Source: Aliiglaciecola sp. M165 (lineage in GTDB: Bacteria; Pseudomonadota; Gammaproteobacteria; Enterobacterales; Alteromonadaceae). Taken from it: a stretch of DNA of 64,000 bases. Position 1 is the stretch's first letter. Every line of letters starts with the position of its first letter. Both the position numbers and the translations under genes were made by a program. Positions 4,787 through 22,129 of the stretch are shown in pieces. The stretch is from assembly GCF_007197995.1 (NCBI RefSeq), contig NZ_VKKH01000009.1, positions 248,001-312,000 on the forward strand, given 5' to 3'. The notes beneath the pieces were generated by a model. It was not told the DNA's origin. It worked only from the letters and a program-made list of their open reading frames with translations, and ran no database searches.

Positions 4787-7648
4787 TTATTCTGGCGTTG
4801 GCAATACCACTATCTCTTTACCCAACGATTCCAGCTGTTGACGAATTTTACTCTCTTCGCCAACTACAACAATTTGCATATTTTCCGTGCGCAATAACTG
4901 TTTTGCGAGCGCATTTAATTCTGTCTTTTTAATGTTCTTAATAATATCGTTTTGTTGTTCTTTGTATTTCGTTTTTAGCTCATAAGTTAGCAAATGATTA
5001 AAAAATGTCGCTTTATTAAATGGCGTTTCGTAATTTAACGCTTCAGATTGAGTATAAGCACTTCGCATCATCGCCAGCTCTTCATCAGTCATACCATTTT
5101 TGCTAAACATATTAATTTCATTCAATATTTCGGAAATACTGTCTGCTGTATTTTCTTGTTTAACATCGGCCCCCGCTTGAAAACGGCCCAAGGTTTTACC
5201 GCCAATAAATCGGCTAGTAGCACCATAGGTGTATCCTTTATCCTCTCGAAGATTTAAGTTTATACGGCTATTAAACATGCCGCCTAAAGGGTAGTTCATT
5301 AACTTGCTTTTAAAATGCGTACCTGTCGCATCGTAAGGCAACCCTTGTTCAACAATGCGCACAACAGACTGCGCTGCGTCGGGTTTGTTGATCAAGTATA
5401 TTTTACTTTGTTGATAGGATGGAAACTCTTGATAGGGTGGAATTTCATAGTCTTCACCTTGCCAATTGGTTAAAAACGTCAAGCGGTCGGCAATACGTTT
5501 TTCGTTGATGTCGCCGACAACGACTAAATTGGCCTGTGCCGGAGAATAATAGCTTTGATAAAACGCTTTAACATCATTCAGGGTAATATTTTGCAAGGTT
5601 GTCAATGTTCCGGAATCTGGCAAGCTAATGCGATTGTTTTCCCCGTACATCAACAGATCAACAGCTCGGCTAGCAAGCACTGAGGGATTTTTTATTTGCT
5701 GCTGCATTTGTTGTGCAAGACTTTGCTGAATTCGAACAAAGTCTTCCTCCAGGAACGCAGGCTTAAACAATTTAGTTTCTAACAATTGCAGGGTTTTGTC
5801 CAAGTTAGACAGCAAACTACTGACCCGAATTTGCGTAAACCTGCCGGCGGCACTAAAACTGATTTGGCTCCCTAACAAGGCTAATTGATTGGCCATTTCC
5901 TCGTTGGACATAACGGTAGTGGATTCATTCATCATTGTCGCAGTAAAAGAAGCCAAGCCAGCCTTATCGATGGGGTCAAGCAAAGGGCCTCCTTCAAGAC
6001 TTAGTAGTAGAGTGACTGTCGGCGTTTCGCTGCTGTTATGCGCTAGCATCTCCAAACCATTTTCGAAGTTCACACGATAATACTGAGGAACTTTAATTGA
6101 AGGATTTGGGCCCGCTACAGGGACTTGTGAGCGGTCGAAATTGTCGACAATTTGCGGCGCGGCTACGTTGTCGTTTTCACTAGATGGTGCTATTTCGCGT
6201 TCAGGCAGAGAGAAATTCTGAGGCTTTGCCGCCAGCTCTAGCTGACCTTTTGGCACAATGCTTAGTACAACTTTAGACTTGTTTTTAATATACTGTTGAT
6301 AAACCCGCATCACATCCTCAGCAGTGACACTGTTGTATCGATCCAAGTCATATTGGACCATATCTGGTTTATCATCAAACAACTGATTCATCGCCAACGT
6401 AGACACTTTACCGGCAACACTCTGCAATCCAAATACGGTCGACGATGTAATGCTTGCCTTGGTTCTGGCCAAATCATCTTGGTTGACGCCACGCTGTTCA
6501 AACTCGGCTAGGGTGTCTTCAATTCGCTTCTGAATATCGGCCAACTTGGTTGATTTTGCTGGGTTAGCTAAGGCAATTAACTGGAATTCGCAGGCCAACT
6601 CGCGACAAGGATGCGACACCACAGCTTGCACAGCGTGGTTGTCTTTGACCAGATTTTTATAAAACAGTGAGGTTTTTCCACCACCAAGAATATCAGACAG
6701 CACATCAAGGGGCGCTTCATCTGGATGTCTCAAATGTACAGTAGGAAAAGTCAATTGAAGTAATGGAAGATAAACTTGATCCTCTAACGTGACGTAACGG
6801 TCTTCATTGAGAAGAACTGGCGTTTTTTCAGCAGCAAGCACTTCAGGACCCGCTGGGATAGAACCAAAGTATTTATTTACCCAGGCGAGGGTTTGTGCAA
6901 CGTCAAGATCGCCACCAATGGTCAATACCGCATTGTTGGGGCCATACCAACGCAAGAAAAATGCTTTTAAATCATTTACCGTTACTCTATCGAGATCTTC
7001 AACATAACCGATTGTCGACCATGAGTATGGGTGTCCAACCGGATACAATGCCTCGCTATTTCGTTCGCTACGAAGACCATAAGGACGATTGTCATAATTT
7101 TGTCCGCGCTCATTTTTAACTGTTTCGCGCTGGACTTCGAATTTTTCTTGAGTCACCGCATCGAGTAAAAAGCCCATTCTGTCGGCTTCTAACCACAACA
7201 CCTTTTCTAGCTGATTAGCTGGCACTGTTTGATAATAATTGGTGCGATCAGAGTTTGTGGTTCCATTCATGTCACCACCCGCTTCAGTGATAATTCGAAA
7301 ATGCTCTTCGTCTGCAACGTTCTTTGACCCTTGAAACATCATATGTTCAAAAAAATGGGCAAATCCTGACTTGCCGACTTCTTCGCGGGCAGAGCCGACG
7401 TGATATGTCACATCAACATGCACTAGTGGGTCAGATTTATCCGAATGCAATACCAATGTGAGTCCGTTATCAAGACGGTATTTTTGATAGGCGATTGAGA
7501 CACCATTTGTTTGTTCAACGGTACTGTCTTCGACCAGTGAGACACCAACTGGCAGTTCAGCTTTCACTGAATTTTTAATCGTTTGTTGAGAAGTGCATCC
7601 GGCAAGAACTAATGAGAGGGCCCCAATAACAAATAGTATTTTTTTCAC
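4787..7648 (-). CDS. M16 family zinc metallopeptidase lipoprotein
   Basis: The 953-residue protein begins with a lipoprotein signal (lipobox LVLAGC, Cys about 18), so it is anchored in the envelope. The first M16 half contains the inverted zinc motif HFFEH at residues 98-102 and the downstream VKNERGQNYDNRPYG with the third-ligand glutamate. The second half (from about residue 510) has the M16 C-domain fold without the zinc motif, as in two-domain pitrilysin-like proteases. Likely degrades peptides in the periplasm. It is a single gene with its own promoter region shared divergently with the Hpt gene. Confidence 0.93.
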   Translation of the reverse strand: MKKILFVIGALSLVLAGCTSQQTIKNSVKAELPVGVSLVEDSTVEQTNGVSIAYQKYRLDNGLTLVLHSDKSDPLVHVDVTYHVGSAREEVGKSGFAHFFEHMMFQGSKNVADEEHFRIITEAGGDMNGTTNSDRTNYYQTVPANQLEKVLWLEADRMGFLLDAVTQEKFEVQRETVKNERGQNYDNRPYGLRSERNSEALYPVGHPYSWSTIGYVEDLDRVTVNDLKAFFLRWYGPNNAVLTIGGDLDVAQTLAWVNKYFGSIPAGPEVLAAEKTPVLLNEDRYVTLEDQVYLPLLQLTFPTVHLRHPDEAPLDVLSDILGGGKTSLFYKNLVKDNHAVQAVVSHPCRELACEFQLIALANPAKSTKLADIQKRIEDTLAEFEQRGVNQDDLARTKASITSSTVFGLQSVAGKVSTLAMNQLFDDKPDMVQYDLDRYNSVTAEDVMRVYQQYIKNKSKVVLSIVPKGQLELAAKPQNFSLPEREIAPSSENDNVAAPQIVDNFDRSQVPVAGPNPSIKVPQYYRVNFENGLEMLAHNSSETPTVTLLLSLEGGPLLDPIDKAGLASFTATMMNESTTVMSNEEMANQLALLGSQISFSAAGRFTQIRVSSLLSNLDKTLQLLETKLFKPAFLEEDFVRIQQSLAQQMQQQIKNPSVLASRAVDLLMYGENNRISLPDSGTLTTLQNITLNDVKAFYQSYYSPAQANLVVVGDINEKRIADRLTFLTNWQGEDYEIPPYQEFPSYQQSKIYLINKPDAAQSVVRIVEQGLPYDATGTHFKSKLMNYPLGGMFNSRINLNLREDKGYTYGATSRFIGGKTLGRFQAGADVKQENTADSISEILNEINMFSKNGMTDEELAMMRSAYTQSEALNYETPFNKATFFNHLLTYELKTKYKEQQNDIIKNIKKTELNALAKQLLRTENMQIVVVGEESKIRQQLESLGKEIVVLPTPE

Positions 7649-12008: not shown

Positions 12009-13107
12009 CTAAAGACCAGACTTAAGGCTGGCCTGAATAAATTTGTCGAGATCTCCGTCTAACACAGCTTGAGTGTTGCGAGTTTCAACGCCGGTGCGCA
12101 AATCTTTAATACGAGAATCGTCCAATACATACGAACGTATCTGACTTCCCCAGCCGATGTCTGACTTACTGTCTTCCATCGCCTGCTTTTCTTCATTGTG
12201 CTTTTGCATCTCGAATTCATAAAGCTTGGCTTTAAGCTGCTTCATGGCTTGGTCTTTGTTTTTGTGCTGTGACCGATCATTTTGACATTGCACCACAATA
12301 TTTGTGGGCAAATGGGTGATCCGCACGGCTGAATCTGTCCGGTTTACGTGTTGACCTCCAGCGCCTGATGCACGGTACGTATCAATTCGCAAATCAGCAG
12401 GATTAATGTCTATTTCAATGTCGTCATTGATCTCTGGATAAATAAAAGCAGAGGCAAATGACGTATGACGACGATTCCCAGAATCAAAAGGGGATTTTCT
12501 GACCAGACGATGAACACCGGTTTCGGTGCGCAGCCAACCAAAAGCATATTCGCCACCAAATCGGATTGTCGCACTTTTAATGCCCGCAACATCACCATCA
12601 GACACTTCGATCAGTTCGGTTTTAAACCCATGATCTTCGCCCCATCGCAAATACATGCGTAATAACATGTTGGCCCAATCTTGAGCTTCAGTACCGCCAG
12701 AGCCTGATTGAATATCAAGGTAACAATCGTTGGTATCATTAGGACCGGAGAACATACGACGAAATTCTAACAATTCGAGCTGCTCGACTAACGCTTGCAA
12801 TTCGGCCTGGGCCTCATTAAAAGTCTCTTCGTCTTCGGCTTCGACGGCAAGCTCTAGCAGTCCCTCGACGTCTTCGGCACCCTGGTCGAGATTAATGATG
12901 GTTTCAACTACTTGTTCAAGAGCGACTTTTTCTTTACCTAGCGCTTGAGCCCGGTCAGGTTCGTTCCACACATCAGGACTTTCTAACTCTCGGCTGACTT
13001 CTTCTAATCGTTCACGTTTGTGATCGAAGTCAAAGATACCCCCGAAGCAAAGCATTACGTTCTCTAACGTCAGCTAGCGTATTTTGTACAGGATTGATTT
13101 CAAACAT
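12009..13107 (-). CDS. prfB: Peptide chain release factor 2 with programmed +1 frameshift
   Basis: Translation starts at ATG 13105-13107 ([18 protein letters not shown]) and runs 25 codons to an in-frame TGA at 13030-13032. The surrounding CGGGGGTATCTTTGAC is the classical RF2 recoding site: a Shine-Dalgarno-like GGGGG, then CTT slipping +1 at the UGA. After the shift the frame reads [12 protein letters not shown] and gives 365 residues, exactly the usual size. SPF (in [11 protein letters not shown]) reads UGA/UAA and GGQ (in [12 protein letters not shown]) triggers peptide release. RF2 shortage promotes the shift, so the gene is autoregulated. The break must not be called a pseudogene. Confidence 0.97.
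13030..13045 (-). promoter_or_regulatory. prfB +1 ribosomal frameshift site
   Basis: Read on the minus strand this is CGGGGGTATCTTTGAC-like, with CTT at 13033-13035 and TGA at 13030-13032. The purine-rich block upstream acts as an internal Shine-Dalgarno in the known mechanism. Confidence 0.95.
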
Positions 13108-17510: not shown

Positions 17511-19088
17511 TTAATGTTCGCGTGTCGTTAAAAACTCAATGTCCGGGAAACGTTCCTGCGACAAACTTAGATTCACCATAGTGGGTGCAATATAGGTTAA
17601 GTTGTCACCGCCGTCTAACGCGATGTTCGTCTCTGCCTTGCGTCTGAATTCATCGAGTTTTTTCTGATCATCACAGCGCACCCATCTGGCAGTGCTAACG
17701 TTCACATGCTCGTAGATGGCATCAACATTATATTCGGCCTTAAGACGGGCAACGACAACATCAAACTGCAAGACACCCACGGCGCCGACAATCAAATCAT
17801 TGTTGATTAGCGGGCGGAACACCTGTACAGCGCCTTCTTCAGACAATTGAATCAAGCCTTTTTGCAATTGCTTTTGTTTCAACGGATCTTTTAGTCGTAT
17901 GCGTTTGAATAACTCAGGCGCAAAGTTAGGGATACCCGCAAAGCGAAACTTCTCACCCCAGGTAAAGGTATCGCCGATCTGAATTGAACCGTGATTATGC
18001 AGGCCAATAATGTCGCCAGCGTAAGCTTCCTCTAGCAAAGCACGATCGCCGGCTAAAAACGTCAAGGCGTCAGAAATCCTGACGTCTTTGCCGATACGGG
18101 TTTGATGCATTTTCATGCCTTTTTCGTATTTACCTGACACGATGCGACAAAACGCAATTCGGTCACGGTGTTTCGGATCCATGTTAGCCTGGATCTTAAA
18201 TACAAATCCGGAGAATTTAGCTTGAGCTGCGTCAACGTTTCCTTGGTCAGTTTCTCTGCCCTGCGGTTTTGGTGCCCACTCCACCAGCCCGTCCAGCATA
18301 TGATCAACACCAAAGTTGCCCAACGCCGTGCCGAAATAGACAGGCGTTAGCTCGCCATCTAGGAACTCTTGCAAATTAAATTCATGTGACGCGCCCTTCA
18401 CCAACTCCAACATTTCTCTCAATTCTTCGGCATAGGAACCTATGGCATCGTCTAGCTCGGAATTGTCTATTCCCTTGATGATCCGCTGTTCCTGAATGGT
18501 GTGGCCCATACCCGTTTGATATAAAATCGTTTCGTCACGCAATAAGTGATACACACCTTTGAATTCTTTGCCCATGCCAATTGGCCAGGTGATGGGCGCG
18601 CATTTGATTTTCAATACGTCTTCAACTTCATCAAGCAAGTCAATAGGGTCGCGGGTGTCACGATCCAATTTATTCATGAAGGTCACGATCGGTGTATCGC
18701 GCAAGCGTGTCACTTCCATTAATTTGATAGTACGAGCTTCAACCCCTTTTGCTGCGTCTATGACCATCAAACAGGAATCTACTGCCGTTAAAGTACGGTA
18801 AGTATCTTCGGAGAAATCCTCGTGCCCTGGTGTATCCAGCAGGTTTACTAGATGATCTTGATAGGGAAATTGCATTACCGAAGTGGTCACCGAGATACCA
18901 CGTTCTTTTTCCATTTCCATCCAGTCAGATTTTGCGTGCTGACCGGACTTTTTGCCTTTAACCGTGCCGGCTTTTTGTAAAGCATTACCGAACAATAATA
19001 CCTTTTCAGTAATGGTCGTTTTACCCGCATCAGGGTGAGAAATAATGGCGAACGTTCGACGTTTATCGACTTCTTGCTGGTATGACAT
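17511..19088 (-). CDS. prfC: Peptide chain release factor 3
   Basis: The 525-residue translational GTPase carries the P-loop [13 protein letters not shown], the G3 motif [14 protein letters not shown] and the G4 motif NKLDRD. It recycles RF1/RF2 from the ribosome after peptide release. The start at 19088 ([14 protein letters not shown]) is preferred to an in-frame ATG 69 bases upstream because it matches the family's N-terminus. With prfB at 13 kb, the window holds two release-factor genes. Confidence 0.97.
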
Positions 19089-19330
19089 GGTTGCTCTAAT
19101 TTGAATAATTAACTGACAAAGATTTTCGGGCGCGAATTGTATATGAGATGAGCACAAAAGTCCCGTTGCTTGTGCGTAAAACTCACTGGTAATTAAAATT
19201 GACTATCTAGTCCAAAATATAATAAAAAAAACCAAATATTTACATTTACTGTTAGGGACAATTAGCTTATATTCTGAACTGGTAAGTTTTTTACCGTTAT
19301 ATTTCTCCGCATCACACTGGAAACGAGTCA

Positions 19331-19594
19331 ATGTCACGAAGAAAGCGATTTAGCGGTGCGCAACTGCGTTCTTTGCGAAAAGAAGCAGGGTACACTCAGG
19401 AAGAGCTTGGTCTGCGAGTAGGGATCAGCAGGGAGACGGTGTCTGCTATTGAGAATGACAAACCGGAAACCATGAACAGTATAGGGGTTGAGGTCATCAG
19501 TAAATGGTGGTCAATATGCCGACAGCGAGCGTCTGAACAAACTCGTGAGTCTTTTTTCTCGACTGTGATGGACTACTTCGGCTTCTCAGCATAG
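19331..19594 (+). CDS. XRE-family HTH regulator (regulator 1)
   Basis: The 87-residue protein is almost entirely one Cro/C1-type helix-turn-helix domain: LRSLRKEAGYTQEELGLRVGISRETVSAIEND (residues about 12-43). A short tail follows with tryptophans (SKWWSICRQR). GGAAACGAG precedes the ATG. It lies 4 bp upstream of a polytopic membrane protein gene, so the two are presumably one operon. An imperfect inverted repeat, GGTAA..TTACC, sits at about 19281-19295 in its promoter and may be its own operator. Its link to the peptide array 0.8 kb downstream is inferred only from position. Confidence 0.85.
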   Translation: MSRRKRFSGAQLRSLRKEAGYTQEELGLRVGISRETVSAIENDKPETMNSIGVEVISKWWSICRQRASEQTRESFFSTVMDYFGFSA

Positions 19595-19598
19595 CAGA

Positions 19599-20318
19599 AT
19601 GCTCCTTTCTCACTACTTACCCAAGATACTAACAGCCCTCTTTGGAGGGCTTTTTATCTTTGCGGGTATTTATACCTTTGGTGAGCCTCTTTTATTCGAT
19701 CGACTTTTTATTTGTATTCTTATCTTTACTGCAGTGATATGCCGAAAAAACATTAATGTTTTGGGTGTGGTAGTAATTTTGGTCGCTCAACGCCTTGTAG
19801 AAGAAACAGCATGGTCGATCAGCGAGTTAGAATACAAAGACATAATTAAGGCAGCGTTTTACTTCTTCGCTATCGCTATTTACTGGAAAGTAAAATATGA
19901 CAACGCATCCAGAATTCTGCTGATTGCCCTCTTTGCAGCTATTGCGTCCGAGTTTTATTGGATATATACCAAGCAAAACGCACCAGAGATATACTGGTAT
20001 GCAGCTCATGCTGGGTTTTTCCTGTTCGCCAGGCATCTTTTTTTTATGAGAGTTGCGTACATGGAAGACCTTTTCCCCAATCGCAAGATCGATTCGATTA
20101 ATTTAGATTGGCAAATTTATAAACTGAGTGTCGTATTTGCTGCACTCCAACTCTTCATGGTTTTAGAATACGTGGCAAGAAGCGTATTTGGTCAAACACA
20201 TATAGAGTTTGTTTGGGTAACATACCCCTATATTAGCCAATTATGTTATACCTATCTGGTGTGGGTGATATTTTTCGAAAGTTACAAACTGCTCCTGCCA
20301 AAACTTCTCCGAGCATAA
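19599..20318 (+). CDS. Polytopic membrane protein of unknown family
   Basis: The 239-residue protein has about six to seven hydrophobic helices (for example LTALFGGLFIFAGIYTF, LFICILIFTAVIC, ILLIALFAAIASEFYWIY, near 10, 35 and 105, and a final one ending LVWVIFFES). Charged loops lie between them (VAYMEDLFPNRKIDSINLDW). No known family was recognised. It follows regulator 1 by 4 bp and ends 100 bp before the peptide array. Position suggests a sensor, transporter or immunity protein for the peptides, but nothing in the sequence proves this. Confidence 0.75.
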   Translation: MLLSHYLPKILTALFGGLFIFAGIYTFGEPLLFDRLFICILIFTAVICRKNINVLGVVVILVAQRLVEETAWSISELEYKDIIKAAFYFFAIAIYWKVKYDNASRILLIALFAAIASEFYWIYTKQNAPEIYWYAAHAGFFLFARHLFFMRVAYMEDLFPNRKIDSINLDWQIYKLSVVFAALQLFMVLEYVARSVFGQTHIEFVWVTYPYISQLCYTYLVWVIFFESYKLLLPKLLRA

Positions 20319-20360
20319 ACACTGCAAATTTGTTCAAAAAAAAAGCATACTAACACTATG

Positions 20361-20380
20361 ATGTGGATTGAAATCCACAT
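20361..20380. promoter_or_regulatory. Palindromic operator in front of the peptide array
   Basis: ATGTGGATTGAAATCCACAT is a near-perfect palindrome (9-bp arms). It lies 38 bp upstream of the first peptide ATG, overlapping a plausible -10 element TATGAT at 20358-20363. The TGTGGA-N6-TCCACA core recurs at 21293-21310 in front of the second HTH gene. Confidence 0.7.
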
Positions 20381-20417
20381 TCTCGATTATTAAACGTTAC
20401 AAAAAATAGGATCTCAT

Positions 20418-20576
20418 ATGAAAACTAATAGAGCGACTAAAGCAATAATCGTGTCGTTATTTCTATCAACAGCGGTAGTTGCAACAACAGCGCAAGCCGG
20501 CTCTAAACAAAAACCTAAGGTAGCAGAAGTGCAGATTGCGTGGTATCAACCAGTTCTAGACTTTTTTAACTTTTAA
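20418..20576 (+). CDS. Small secreted peptide, array copy 1
   Basis: This is a 52-residue precursor: a basic start (MKTNRATK), a hydrophobic core (AIIVSLFLSTAVVATT) and the AQA signal-peptidase site, then a mature part of 25 residues. The mature part begins GSKQKPK and ends AWYQPVLDFFNF: a cationic head and an aromatic, hydrophobic tail. It has no cysteine and no double-glycine leader. It is the first of four copies spaced exactly 192 bp apart; its first codons differ from the others (NRATK versus KTVTK). AGGATCTC precedes the ATG. Family not recognised; a signal or an antimicrobial peptide is possible. Confidence 0.8.
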   Translation: MKTNRATKAIIVSLFLSTAVVATTAQAGSKQKPKVAEVQIAWYQPVLDFFNF

Positions 20577-20609
20577 TCAAAATTGGCTAAGCACCAAAAA
20601 GGAAAAATT

Positions 20610-20768
20610 ATGAAAACTAAAACTGTCACCAGAGCAATAATCGTGTCGTTATTTCTATCAACAGCGGTAGTTGCAACAACAGCGCAAGCTGGCTCTAAAC
20701 AAAAACCTAAGGTAGCAGAATTACAGATTGCGTGGTATCAACCTGTTCTAGACTTTTTTAACTTTTAA
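20610..20768 (+). CDS. Small secreted peptide, array copy 2
   Basis: This 52-residue copy starts MKTKTVTRAII after a good ribosome binding site (AAAAAGGAAAAATT). The signal peptide ends TTAQA. The mature part is identical to copy 1 except for one conservative Val-to-Leu change (AELQ instead of AEVQ). Codon for Pro in YQP is CCT here versus CCA in the other copies, a silent change. A 33-base spacer with its own ribosome binding site separates it from copy 1, so each copy can be translated independently from one transcript. Confidence 0.82.
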   Translation: MKTKTVTRAIIVSLFLSTAVVATTAQAGSKQKPKVAELQIAWYQPVLDFFNF

Positions 20769-20801
20769 TCAAAATTAGCTAAGCACCAAAGAGGAAAAAT
20801 T

Positions 20802-20960
20802 ATGAAAACCAAAACTGTCACCAAAGCAATAATCTTGTCGCTATTTCTATCAACAGCGGTAGTTGCAACAGCAGCACAAGCCGGCTCTAAACAAAAACCT
20901 AAGGTAGCAGAAGTGCAGATTGCGTGGTATCAACCAGTTCTAGACTTTTTTAACTTTTAA
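20802..20960 (+). CDS. Small secreted peptide, array copy 3
   Basis: This 52-residue copy starts MKTKTVTKAIIL with GAGGAAAAATT upstream. Changes are confined to the signal peptide (AIILSLF; ATAAQA instead of ATTAQA); the mature 25 residues are identical to copies 1 and 4. It is too short for usual gene-finding cut-offs, and standard annotation may miss it. Confidence 0.82.
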   Translation: MKTKTVTKAIILSLFLSTAVVATAAQAGSKQKPKVAEVQIAWYQPVLDFFNF

Positions 20961-20993
20961 TCAAAATTGGCTAAGCACCAAAGAGGAAAAATT

Positions 20994-21152
20994 ATGAAAA
21001 CCAAAACTGTCACCAAAGCAATAATCGTGTCGCTATTTCTATCAACAGCGGCAGTTGCAACAACAGCGCAAGCTGGCTCTAAACAAAAACCTAAGGTAGC
21101 AGAAGTACAGATTGCGTGGTACCAACCAGTTTTAGATTTTTTTAATTTCTAA
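20994..21152 (+). CDS. Small secreted peptide, array copy 4
   Basis: This last copy has 52 residues and an Ala substitution in the signal peptide (STAAVATT). The mature part is identical in protein to copies 1 and 3, yet its last ten codons carry five silent differences from copy 3 (TAC, TTA, GAT, AAT, TTC for TAT, CTA, GAC, AAC, TTT). That pattern is what purifying selection on the peptide would leave. A hairpin at 21169-21193 follows the stop. Confidence 0.82.
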   Translation: MKTKTVTKAIIVSLFLSTAAVATTAQAGSKQKPKVAEVQIAWYQPVLDFFNF

Positions 21153-21168
21153 AATAAGTGTTTGTAGA

Positions 21169-21193
21169 AAGGTGCTTTTCTTCAAAGCACCTT
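21169..21193 (+). terminator. Hairpin after the peptide array
   Basis: AAGGTGCTTT at 21169-21178 pairs perfectly with AAAGCACCTT at 21184-21193 around TCTTC. Only CCCT follows, so there is no classical U-tract; it may end or stabilise the array transcript. The rest of 21194-21290 contains no gene but does contain one degenerate dispersed motif, TAGACACCCGAC, at 21216-21227. Confidence 0.55.
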
Positions 21194-21292
21194 CCCTAAA
21201 CTCGTCTCGTAAAAATAGACACCCGACTATTAAGAAATTTATTTACCCTGAAAAAACAATACGTTAGCGTTTCCGAGAGATTTTTTACTCTT

Positions 21293-21310
21293 TGTGGAAC
21301 TCAATCCACA
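21293..21310. promoter_or_regulatory. Second copy of the TGTGGA-N6-TCCACA operator
   Basis: TGTGGAACTCAATCCACA shares both 6-bp arms and the 6-bp spacing with the site at 20362-20379. It lies about 105 bp upstream of the second HTH gene, just before TACACTATGG, a possible -10 region. Confidence 0.68.
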
Positions 21311-21414
21311 TCCACTTGCTTACACTATGGGTGAAAATTAAACAGGCAGGTGGGTAAAAACGCCGTTATTCCATTGGCCTGTTGCAGTAATAAAAATAAA
21401 TGGAGTAGGAACCT

Positions 21415-21669
21415 ATGTATATTACAGGTAGCGATTTAAGAAAAATGCGCTTAGAGGCAGGTCTCACAACTGTGCAAATGGCTAAACTAGCTGAGGTAAA
21501 AACCAGAAAGACTTACGAAAACTGGGAAAAAAATATTGGTAGCCCGAGCATGAATCAATTTATTGCCATGTGCACAGGATGTCAGTTTAATTCTTCGGCT
21601 ATAGTGCAAATGGCAATGGAGCGCTCAGACATAAGCCAGCAAATGAACTTAGAGAACGCGGCAGTTTAA
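21415..21669 (+). CDS. HTH regulator (regulator 2)
   Basis: This 84-residue protein is a compact helix-turn-helix domain: LRKMRLEAGLTTVQMAKLAEVKTRKTYENWEK (about 8-39), then SPSMNQFIAMCTGCQFN. The pattern is of the XRE/phage-repressor class. GGAGTAGGAA lies before the ATG. The palindrome TGTGGA-N6-TCCACA in its upstream region, shared with the peptide array, makes this protein or regulator 1 the best candidate to bind it. Which regulator binds is not decided by the sequence. Confidence 0.75.
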   Translation: MYITGSDLRKMRLEAGLTTVQMAKLAEVKTRKTYENWEKNIGSPSMNQFIAMCTGCQFNSSAIVQMAMERSDISQQMNLENAAV

Positions 21670-21676
21670 ATCGCCT

Positions 21677-22129
21677 TCACGTTTTCAATTGCATAATCAG
21701 GCCGTTTTCACGGCCTGATTCAGTTGGATAGTAACCTTTTCTAATTTCAATTAATTGAAATCCATAGTTTTCATACAAACGAATTGCAACAAAATTCGAT
21801 TCTCGCACTTCCAACCACACCTCATTACAATGATTGACTTTGCACTGTGCCAAAAAGTGCTGCATTAATAACTTCGCATAGCCTTTACCGCGCTGACTAT
21901 CCTTTACACCAATGTCCATCAATGTGGCTTCGCCTGCTACCGCCAACCCGACGTAATATCCCACAACATCTTTGTATGAGTCGTTAGCGTGCATCTGAAA
22001 AGAAAAATACGGCGAGGATAAACAGTCGGCAAATACCGCCTCAGACCATGGATGTGAGTGGCAGGTTGTTTGGATTTGAAACGCCTCGGAATAACTGTGT
22101 TCCGATAGTTGTATGAAGGCAAATGTCAT
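21677..22129 (-). CDS. rimI: Ribosomal protein S18-alanine N-acetyltransferase
   Basis: The 150-residue GNAT acetyltransferase contains the acetyl-CoA loop QRGKGYAKLLMQ and the RimI-typical HPWSEAVFADCL and EVRESNFVAIRLYENYGF. It acetylates the N-terminal Ala of ribosomal protein S18. It lies 9 bp downstream of holD, the conserved holD-rimI operon. A perfect 10-bp stem (AATCAGGCCG/CGGCCTGATT, 21695-21720) lies within its last codons. Confidence 0.95.
   Translation of the reverse strand: MTFAFIQLSEHSYSEAFQIQTTCHSHPWSEAVFADCLSSPYFSFQMHANDSYKDVVGYYVGLAVAGEATLMDIGVKDSQRGKGYAKLLMQHFLAQCKVNHCNEVWLEVRESNFVAIRLYENYGFQLIEIRKGYYPTESGRENGLIMQLKT

Follow-up and report, generated by a model that had tools for sequence, protein, structure and literature searches.

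A conserved cassette of secreted-peptide genes, an eight-helix membrane protein and XRE-type regulators in Alteromonadaceae, a candidate peptide signalling system

The window, the 64,000-nt stretch of Aliiglaciecola sp. M165 DNA analysed here, carries a compact cassette of six parts: a small regulator (HTH1), a membrane protein (MP), a perfect palindrome, an array of four secreted-peptide genes, a second palindrome and a second small regulator (HTH2). Sister genomes repeat this order. The conserved unit spans positions 19331 to 21669 and is thus wider than the array alone, on which the original prediction had centred; that reading left out the upstream regulator and membrane-protein pair, the palindromes, HTH2 and the polyprotein relatives described below. 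The features are:

19331 to 19594, + strand: HTH1, 87-aa XRE-type regulator (Pfam HTH_3, E 1.8e-10)
19599 to 20318, + strand: MP, 239-aa membrane protein with eight long helices, proposed peptide receptor
20323 to 20351, + strand: presumed array promoter (TGCAAA, 17 nt, CATACT), blocks conserved in 7 aligned loci
20362 to 20379, no strand: putative operator 1, TGTGGATTGAAATCCACA, conserved in 7 aligned loci
20418 to 20576, + strand: peptide copy 1, mature part 20499 to 20573
20610 to 20768, + strand: peptide copy 2 (V to L)
20802 to 20960, + strand: peptide copy 3
20994 to 21152, + strand: peptide copy 4
21169 to 21193, + strand: hairpin after the array, possible mRNA 3′ end (−15.2 kcal/mol, z −4.54; no T-run)
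21293 to 21310, no strand: putative operator 2, TGTGGAACTCAATCCACA, 122 bp before HTH2
21415 to 21669, + strand: HTH2, 84-aa XRE-type regulator, proposed output gene (Pfam HTH_3, E 3.7e-5)

The four peptide ORFs are each 52 codons long and follow one another at an ATG-to-ATG distance of 192 bp, exactly as originally claimed; Tandem Repeats Finder describes the array as 3.7 copies of period 192 (94% match, score 1281). Each precursor consists of a 27-residue signal part ending in AQA and a 25-residue mature part, GSKQKPKVAE[V/L]QIAWYQPVLDFFNF, with L in copy 2 only, in agreement with the predicted AxA site and single V/L change among otherwise identical mature parts. Codon comparison also recovers the five silent changes reported between copies 3 and 4 within the last ten codons. 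Across the four copies, whose pairs are not independent, pS and pN are 0.243 and 0.008 in the mature part and 0.169 and 0.064 in the signal part, so that replacements are indeed rarer in the mature part, as the claim of a variable signal and a steady mature part had it. The silent excess is real, though it rests on few changes. The mature part of the array in sister genome G005 behaves likewise (pS 0.151, pN 0.007), and in G007 (pS 0.022, pN 0.008) the bias is weak because the changes are few, too few to weigh. The claim that the peptide belongs to no recognisable family held up: the precursor has no match above cutoff in Pfam (best DUF3836, E 0.11) or NCBIfam (JUQZ_fam_ocin, E 0.061, 13.6 bits against a cutoff of 40). 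The array is the sole such locus found in the 4.6-Mb genome of the window (four strong matches; next best E 0.3). An unrelated 100-bp direct repeat (1.9 copies) lies at positions 2031 to 2219 of the window.

Comparison across the genus narrows the conserved unit. Because copies in the sister arrays are near-identical inside each array yet only ∼45–57% identical to those of the window, homogenisation of copies would largely account for near-identity inside an array. Across species, what recurs of these short peptides, which start cationic and end amphipathic, is confined to the mature start (GSKxKPP) and a W-Y...F tail. The conserved unit is therefore smaller than the full 25-mer. Of the proposed selection on the mature peptide, purifying selection on a secreted peptide stands; the whole mature part as its unit, and within-array identity as its evidence, do not. 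Selection on all 25 residues as a general rule was accordingly rejected, the unit kept from species to species being a short core. Multiple copies, which the original prediction had emphasised, are found in most relatives too: the window has 4, G005, G007 and G008 have 6 each, G002 has 5 diverged copies and G006 at least 3 short ones, and unbroken arrays of the genus hold 3–6 gene copies. A direct peptide search of genome contigs found no relative, probably because the peptide diverges fast; searches based on MP did find relatives.

Within the window's family, the MP profile matches 48 of 395 genomes, which fall in 12 of 52 genera; some of them carry several paralogues, and in four of the 48, all from one genus, the matches are weak and partial. 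The closest named relatives are in Aliiglaciecola lipolytica and an Aliiglaciecola sp. Outside the family MP did not turn up: sets of 394 order-level and 369 class-level genomes gave 5 and 2 hits, all from family members. Searches of plasmid and phage collections by tblastn, and one scan of viral contigs, gave no MP match, and neither MP nor the precursor matched PHROGs or PADLOC, in which HTH1 and HTH2 gave only generic HTH matches. A mobile-element or defence origin thus finds no support in plasmids, phages, viral contigs, PHROGs or PADLOC. An Rfam scan of positions 19000 to 22000 gave no match.

MP itself has no family match in Pfam, NCBIfam, PHROGs, PADLOC or PDB sequences. When 63 members were searched against Pfam and NCBIfam, only stray weak hits appeared (one to GhoT_OrtT, two to a methyltransferase model) and none placed MP in the SdpI family. 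An AlphaFold2 model built from 63 sequences shows eight long helices (pLDDT 92, pTM 0.87), and Foldseek found nothing in the PDB at E ≤ 0.001; a likeness to rhodopsins or GPCRs was rejected (best E 0.22, TM 0.29, rmsd 10.3). Nor does MP look like a histidine kinase receptor, since it lacks a family match and its chain ends after the eighth helix. Mean K+R counts are 1.62, 2.56 and 3.60 in loops 2, 4 and 6, 1.65 at the C-terminus, and 0.17, 0.21 and 0.52 in loops 1, 3 and 5, with loop 7 intermediate (1.48). We infer that both ends of MP are cytoplasmic, because these loop charges place them there and because a fused HTH domain, as seen in one lineage, must lie there. In this topology the conserved residues D34, E69, W72, W121, W133, E190 and R194 would lie on or close to the periplasmic face, with R151 and the invariant D170 turned towards the cytoplasm.

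The fusions are six tandem ORFs of 304–361 aa in one genome (G074), in which an HTH-like stretch precedes the MP domain. Pfam finds the HTH in five of the six at E ≤ 0.01 and in four above the curated cutoff; an AlphaFold2 model from the six alone (pLDDT 76, pTM 0.60) is poor in the linker. The fusions suggest that a main role of MP is regulatory. The six genes (L142, 2570–9862, minus strand) are interrupted by transposase-like ORFs, and the ORF list of the locus contains no recognisable precursor near them. Elsewhere the two proteins are separate: HTH1, of XRE type by Pfam, adjoins MP upstream in 64 of 67 MP loci (all except L121, L127 and L136; L142 treated apart), a pairing of small HTH and membrane protein that recalls SdpR and SdpI.

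Sixty further MP neighbourhoods were taken into the comparison. The precursor count covers 62 distinct MP loci, each followed by at least 320 nt of sequence; five shorter loci and L142 were set aside. Under a strict rule (same-strand ORF within 270 nt, basic start, hydrophobic stretch and [K/R]-x(0-2)-[P/D]-P), a precursor follows MP in 53 of these 62 loci, which are related to each other and hence not independent events, versus 5 of 3,100 shuffles (50 each) and 0 of 62 reverse complements. Reading by eye adds five (window, L028, L096, L110 and L119), bringing the total to 58 of 62; the window core is GSKQKPK where sister species show GSKxKPP. The layout of the autoinducer class, a secreted peptide beside a regulator and a membrane protein that would serve as sensor, is thus present in 58 of 62 loci. 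No precursor adjoins MP in L109, L130, L136 and L138, and the genome of L109 holds an unlinked precursor-like gene. A comparable orphan was seen in G012 (L033, ∼6190–6333, minus strand; GTG start, core TSKQKPIDP, tail WYTPILDFFGF), on a different contig from that genome's HTH1-MP-HTH2 locus, which has no precursor.

The typical core is G-x-K-x-x-P-P within a Sec-type precursor, and in 24 of the 53 strict precursors at least three cores share one ORF, forming a polyprotein; strict cores per ORF range from 1 to 31. For example, single ORFs encode GTGGKMVPPSxI six times (L113), NVGGKRVPPLAF 11 times (L123), MTKGTQKPPMALLA nine times (L104), AVGSKQVPPxLL 19 times (L087) and, within 447 aa, AATSRRTPPVIEx 31 times (L089). 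Among 23 precursors given, the 20 with at least three alignable units were measured, and in all 20 pN/pS between units lies between 0 and 0.34: the repeat units are kept while codons drift. The original prediction had named random copy number together with a lack of silent bias as evidence against it; copy number does vary, but every one of the 20 repeat precursors measured shows the silent bias. Arrays of genes and polyproteins appear to be alternative means to one end. The polyprotein cores lack the amphipathic tail, and 13 of 24 repeat precursors have a hydrophobic residue followed by Ala ahead of the commonest core, a step that may recall the signal-peptidase site preceding the core in single-core forms.

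Core sequence tracks MP more than HTH1. In 45 loci (54 minus near-duplicates), the correlation of core similarity is stronger with MP distance (r 0.34) than with HTH1 distance (r 0.22); the partial correlation is 0.28 for MP with HTH1 held constant and −0.09 for HTH1 with MP held constant. The MP values were reached by 0 of 2,000 permutations, phylogeny being controlled through HTH1 only. Such covariation is what a ligand and its receptor should show.

The palindromes would link the peptide genes to the regulators. Operator 1 starts 10 nt after the presumed −10 of the array promoter, over the expected start site, so a bound protein would repress the array. A generic promoter scan did not list the pair at 20323 to 20351 and gave another (20333–20362), reporting two sites where shuffles average 5.1, that is, fewer than shuffles; no intrinsic terminator after the array was listed by scan. 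Across loci, a −10-like [CG]ATA[AC]T lies upstream of 39 of 53 precursors (shuffled 13.5%), followed directly by a strong palindrome in 16 of the 39 (shuffled 3.8%). The exact form TGTGGA-N6-TCCACA occurs at 31 sites in 33 genomes (27 with MP, six without; reversed control 8), 28 of them at cassettes as tallied against MP and HTH2 positions; the three exceptions (G067, G286 and the MP-free G013) have no cassette within 1.5 kb. The genome of the window has exactly two, operators 1 and 2. The looser GTGG-N8-CCAC precedes the precursor in 23 of 54 loci, versus 141 of 10,600 background stretches, and in 20 of the 23 it lies 19–38 nt before the ATG; some of the other 31 loci carry a different palindrome there.

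HTH1 is the likelier of the two regulators to bind the palindrome, because in G009 a palindrome (two bases off) stays beside HTH1, before the peptide gene, in a genome where no HTH2 is detected at E ≤ 1e-15. Likewise, L124, L131, L132 and L134 have the palindrome and no HTH2 match within ∼4 kb. HTH2 as sole operator binder was set aside on these five cases; where a species holds both regulators, HTH2 may bind the palindrome as well. HTH2 is 87–95% identical in five sister loci. Of 196 family genomes, 27 have it (E ≤ 1e-15), and 22 of these have MP as well. One locus (L177 in G022, 293–1758) keeps HTH1, palindrome and HTH2 but shows neither an MP match nor a peptide in between, probably through secondary loss. 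Two genomes, G075 and G112, show a striking expansion to 12 and 13 HTH2-like genes (E ≤ 1e-15).

We consider it probable, with ample room for doubt, that the cassette is a quorum-sensing-like system for peptide signalling through MP and HTH1. 'Signal' was among the original guesses, beside antimicrobial and surface-active peptide, and is the one that matches this reading. In the mechanism we propose, HTH1 would repress the array by binding the palindrome that covers the promoter's start site. Basal precursor, whose signal peptide is evident in the sequence, would leave via Sec, and signal peptidase would free short cationic peptides starting at about G-S-K-x-K-P-P; in polyprotein relatives an additional protease would cut between repeats. 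The peptide would then bind the periplasmic side of MP, where D34, E69, W72, W121, W133 and E190 would suit a Lys-x-x-Pro-Pro ligand, and MP would capture HTH1 by its cytoplasmic side (R151 and D170). Capture would turn on the peptide genes in positive feedback, and HTH2, with the same operator, would relay the state to target genes. Many cores per transcript, whether from gene arrays or polyproteins, would raise signal output. That the ligand relieves HTH1 repression in this way we hold at slightly less than an even chance. Several observations weigh against signalling: the model gives the peptide no exit route through the outer membrane; the predicted MP structure resembles no known receptor by Foldseek against the PDB; four MP loci lack an adjoining precursor and three an upstream HTH1; and the exact palindrome is missing from 8 of the 27 MP-bearing genomes scanned and GTGG-N8-CCAC from 31 of 54 loci.

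The main rival, which we regard as unlikely, is a bacteriocin or cannibalism toxin that would inhibit relatives, with MP an immunity protein that also reports the peptide to HTH1 in the manner of SdpI. In the SdpC-SdpI-SdpR system of Bacillus subtilis, as described in PMC1626106, a secreted peptide is encoded together with a polytopic membrane protein and a small HTH repressor, a three-part layout like the present one; the peptide is sensed at the membrane, where the repressor is captured. The cationic start and amphipathic end of the short genus peptides would also suit a toxin. However, the amphipathic tail is missing from the polyprotein cores, MP members match no Pfam immunity family, the precursor matches none above cutoff in Pfam or NCBIfam, and the HTH-MP fusions favour regulation as a main MP role. 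The genus cassette also has no dedicated maturation or export genes, outer-membrane export included; sdpAB-like maturation genes are likewise absent beside the array, and MP matches no SdpI Pfam model. SdpR is of ArsR type, whereas HTH1 is of XRE type, and the Sdp system is Gram-positive. Relatives here have polyprotein precursors.

Signalling with the opposite polarity, in which the peptide would reinforce HTH1 and so keep down its own output by negative feedback, is distinctly unlikely in our view. The anatomy leaves the sign unfixed, and operator 2 lies upstream of the presumed HTH2 −10, so a bound regulator could act differently there; we argue that the amplified number of ligand copies is more in keeping with positive feedback. 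Least probable is envelope or export surveillance within one cell, the precursor being a decoy whose processing or accumulation in the periplasm would report secretion or protease activity via MP to HTH1. A signal peptide that directs it to the periplasm and the lack of an outer-membrane export gene in the cassette speak for this, but cores that diversify with MP and occur in many copies would be more expected of a ligand than of a generic substrate.

Peptide autoinduction through MP, the reading we prefer, shares traits with several known systems. RRNPP receptors sense through TPR repeats after peptide import and are cytoplasmic, whereas HTH1 has 87 aa with an HTH match only, lacks a C-terminal repeat domain of that kind and is partnered with a membrane protein. 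The likeness lies in an XRE-type HTH regulator beside a secreted propeptide (PMC9765709, PMC10075063). MP lacks a kinase domain and the genus cassette lacks a response regulator. In these respects it differs from Agr- and Com-type systems, which use histidine kinase receptors and encode a multi-helix membrane sensor beside the peptide; a multi-helix membrane protein encoded beside the peptide is the shared trait. The fungal alpha-factor pheromone and insect multi-core antimicrobial precursors likewise combine a signal peptide with many tandem copies of one short peptide, but they are eukaryotic and use other processing signals than the hydrophobic-Ala step seen here. We rate the system as new in kind, peptide autoinduction as a broad idea being already known, because its specific parts fall in no family of the libraries searched and the traits that define RRNPP, two-component and SdpI systems are absent. 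A search of open-access PMC text turned up no earlier description of the cassette.

To our knowledge, Gram-negative bacteria communicate mainly with small molecules, and dedicated receptors for peptide signals are typical of Gram-positive bacteria. If confirmed, the cassette would be a peptide communication system unusual for Gram-negative bacteria and a new communication channel in a marine family, combining peptide, membrane receptor and regulator compactly with polyprotein precursors. It would also supply sensor parts whose ligands can be predicted, and receptors of a family for which the libraries searched contain no described relative. In its fullest form, the proposal is a new Gram-negative class of peptide quorum sensing, in which Sec-exported Lys-x-x-Pro-Pro peptides from arrays or 30-odd-copy polyproteins act on a kinase-free eight-helix inner-membrane receptor that directly controls an XRE regulator (fused to it in one lineage), peptide and receptor having co-diversified into many pherotypes across Alteromonadaceae; we judge this as apt to be right as wrong. 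The ligands can be synthesised from sequence, which makes the idea directly testable. Such systems stay hidden because short or repetitive precursors are easily overlooked and several of them sit at draft-genome contig ends. The arrays of G001, G003 and G006 coincide with such ends, and in G003 the first array unit (L028, ∼12234–12362) resembles a decayed precursor (MKHESVLST...), with an intact copy after it.
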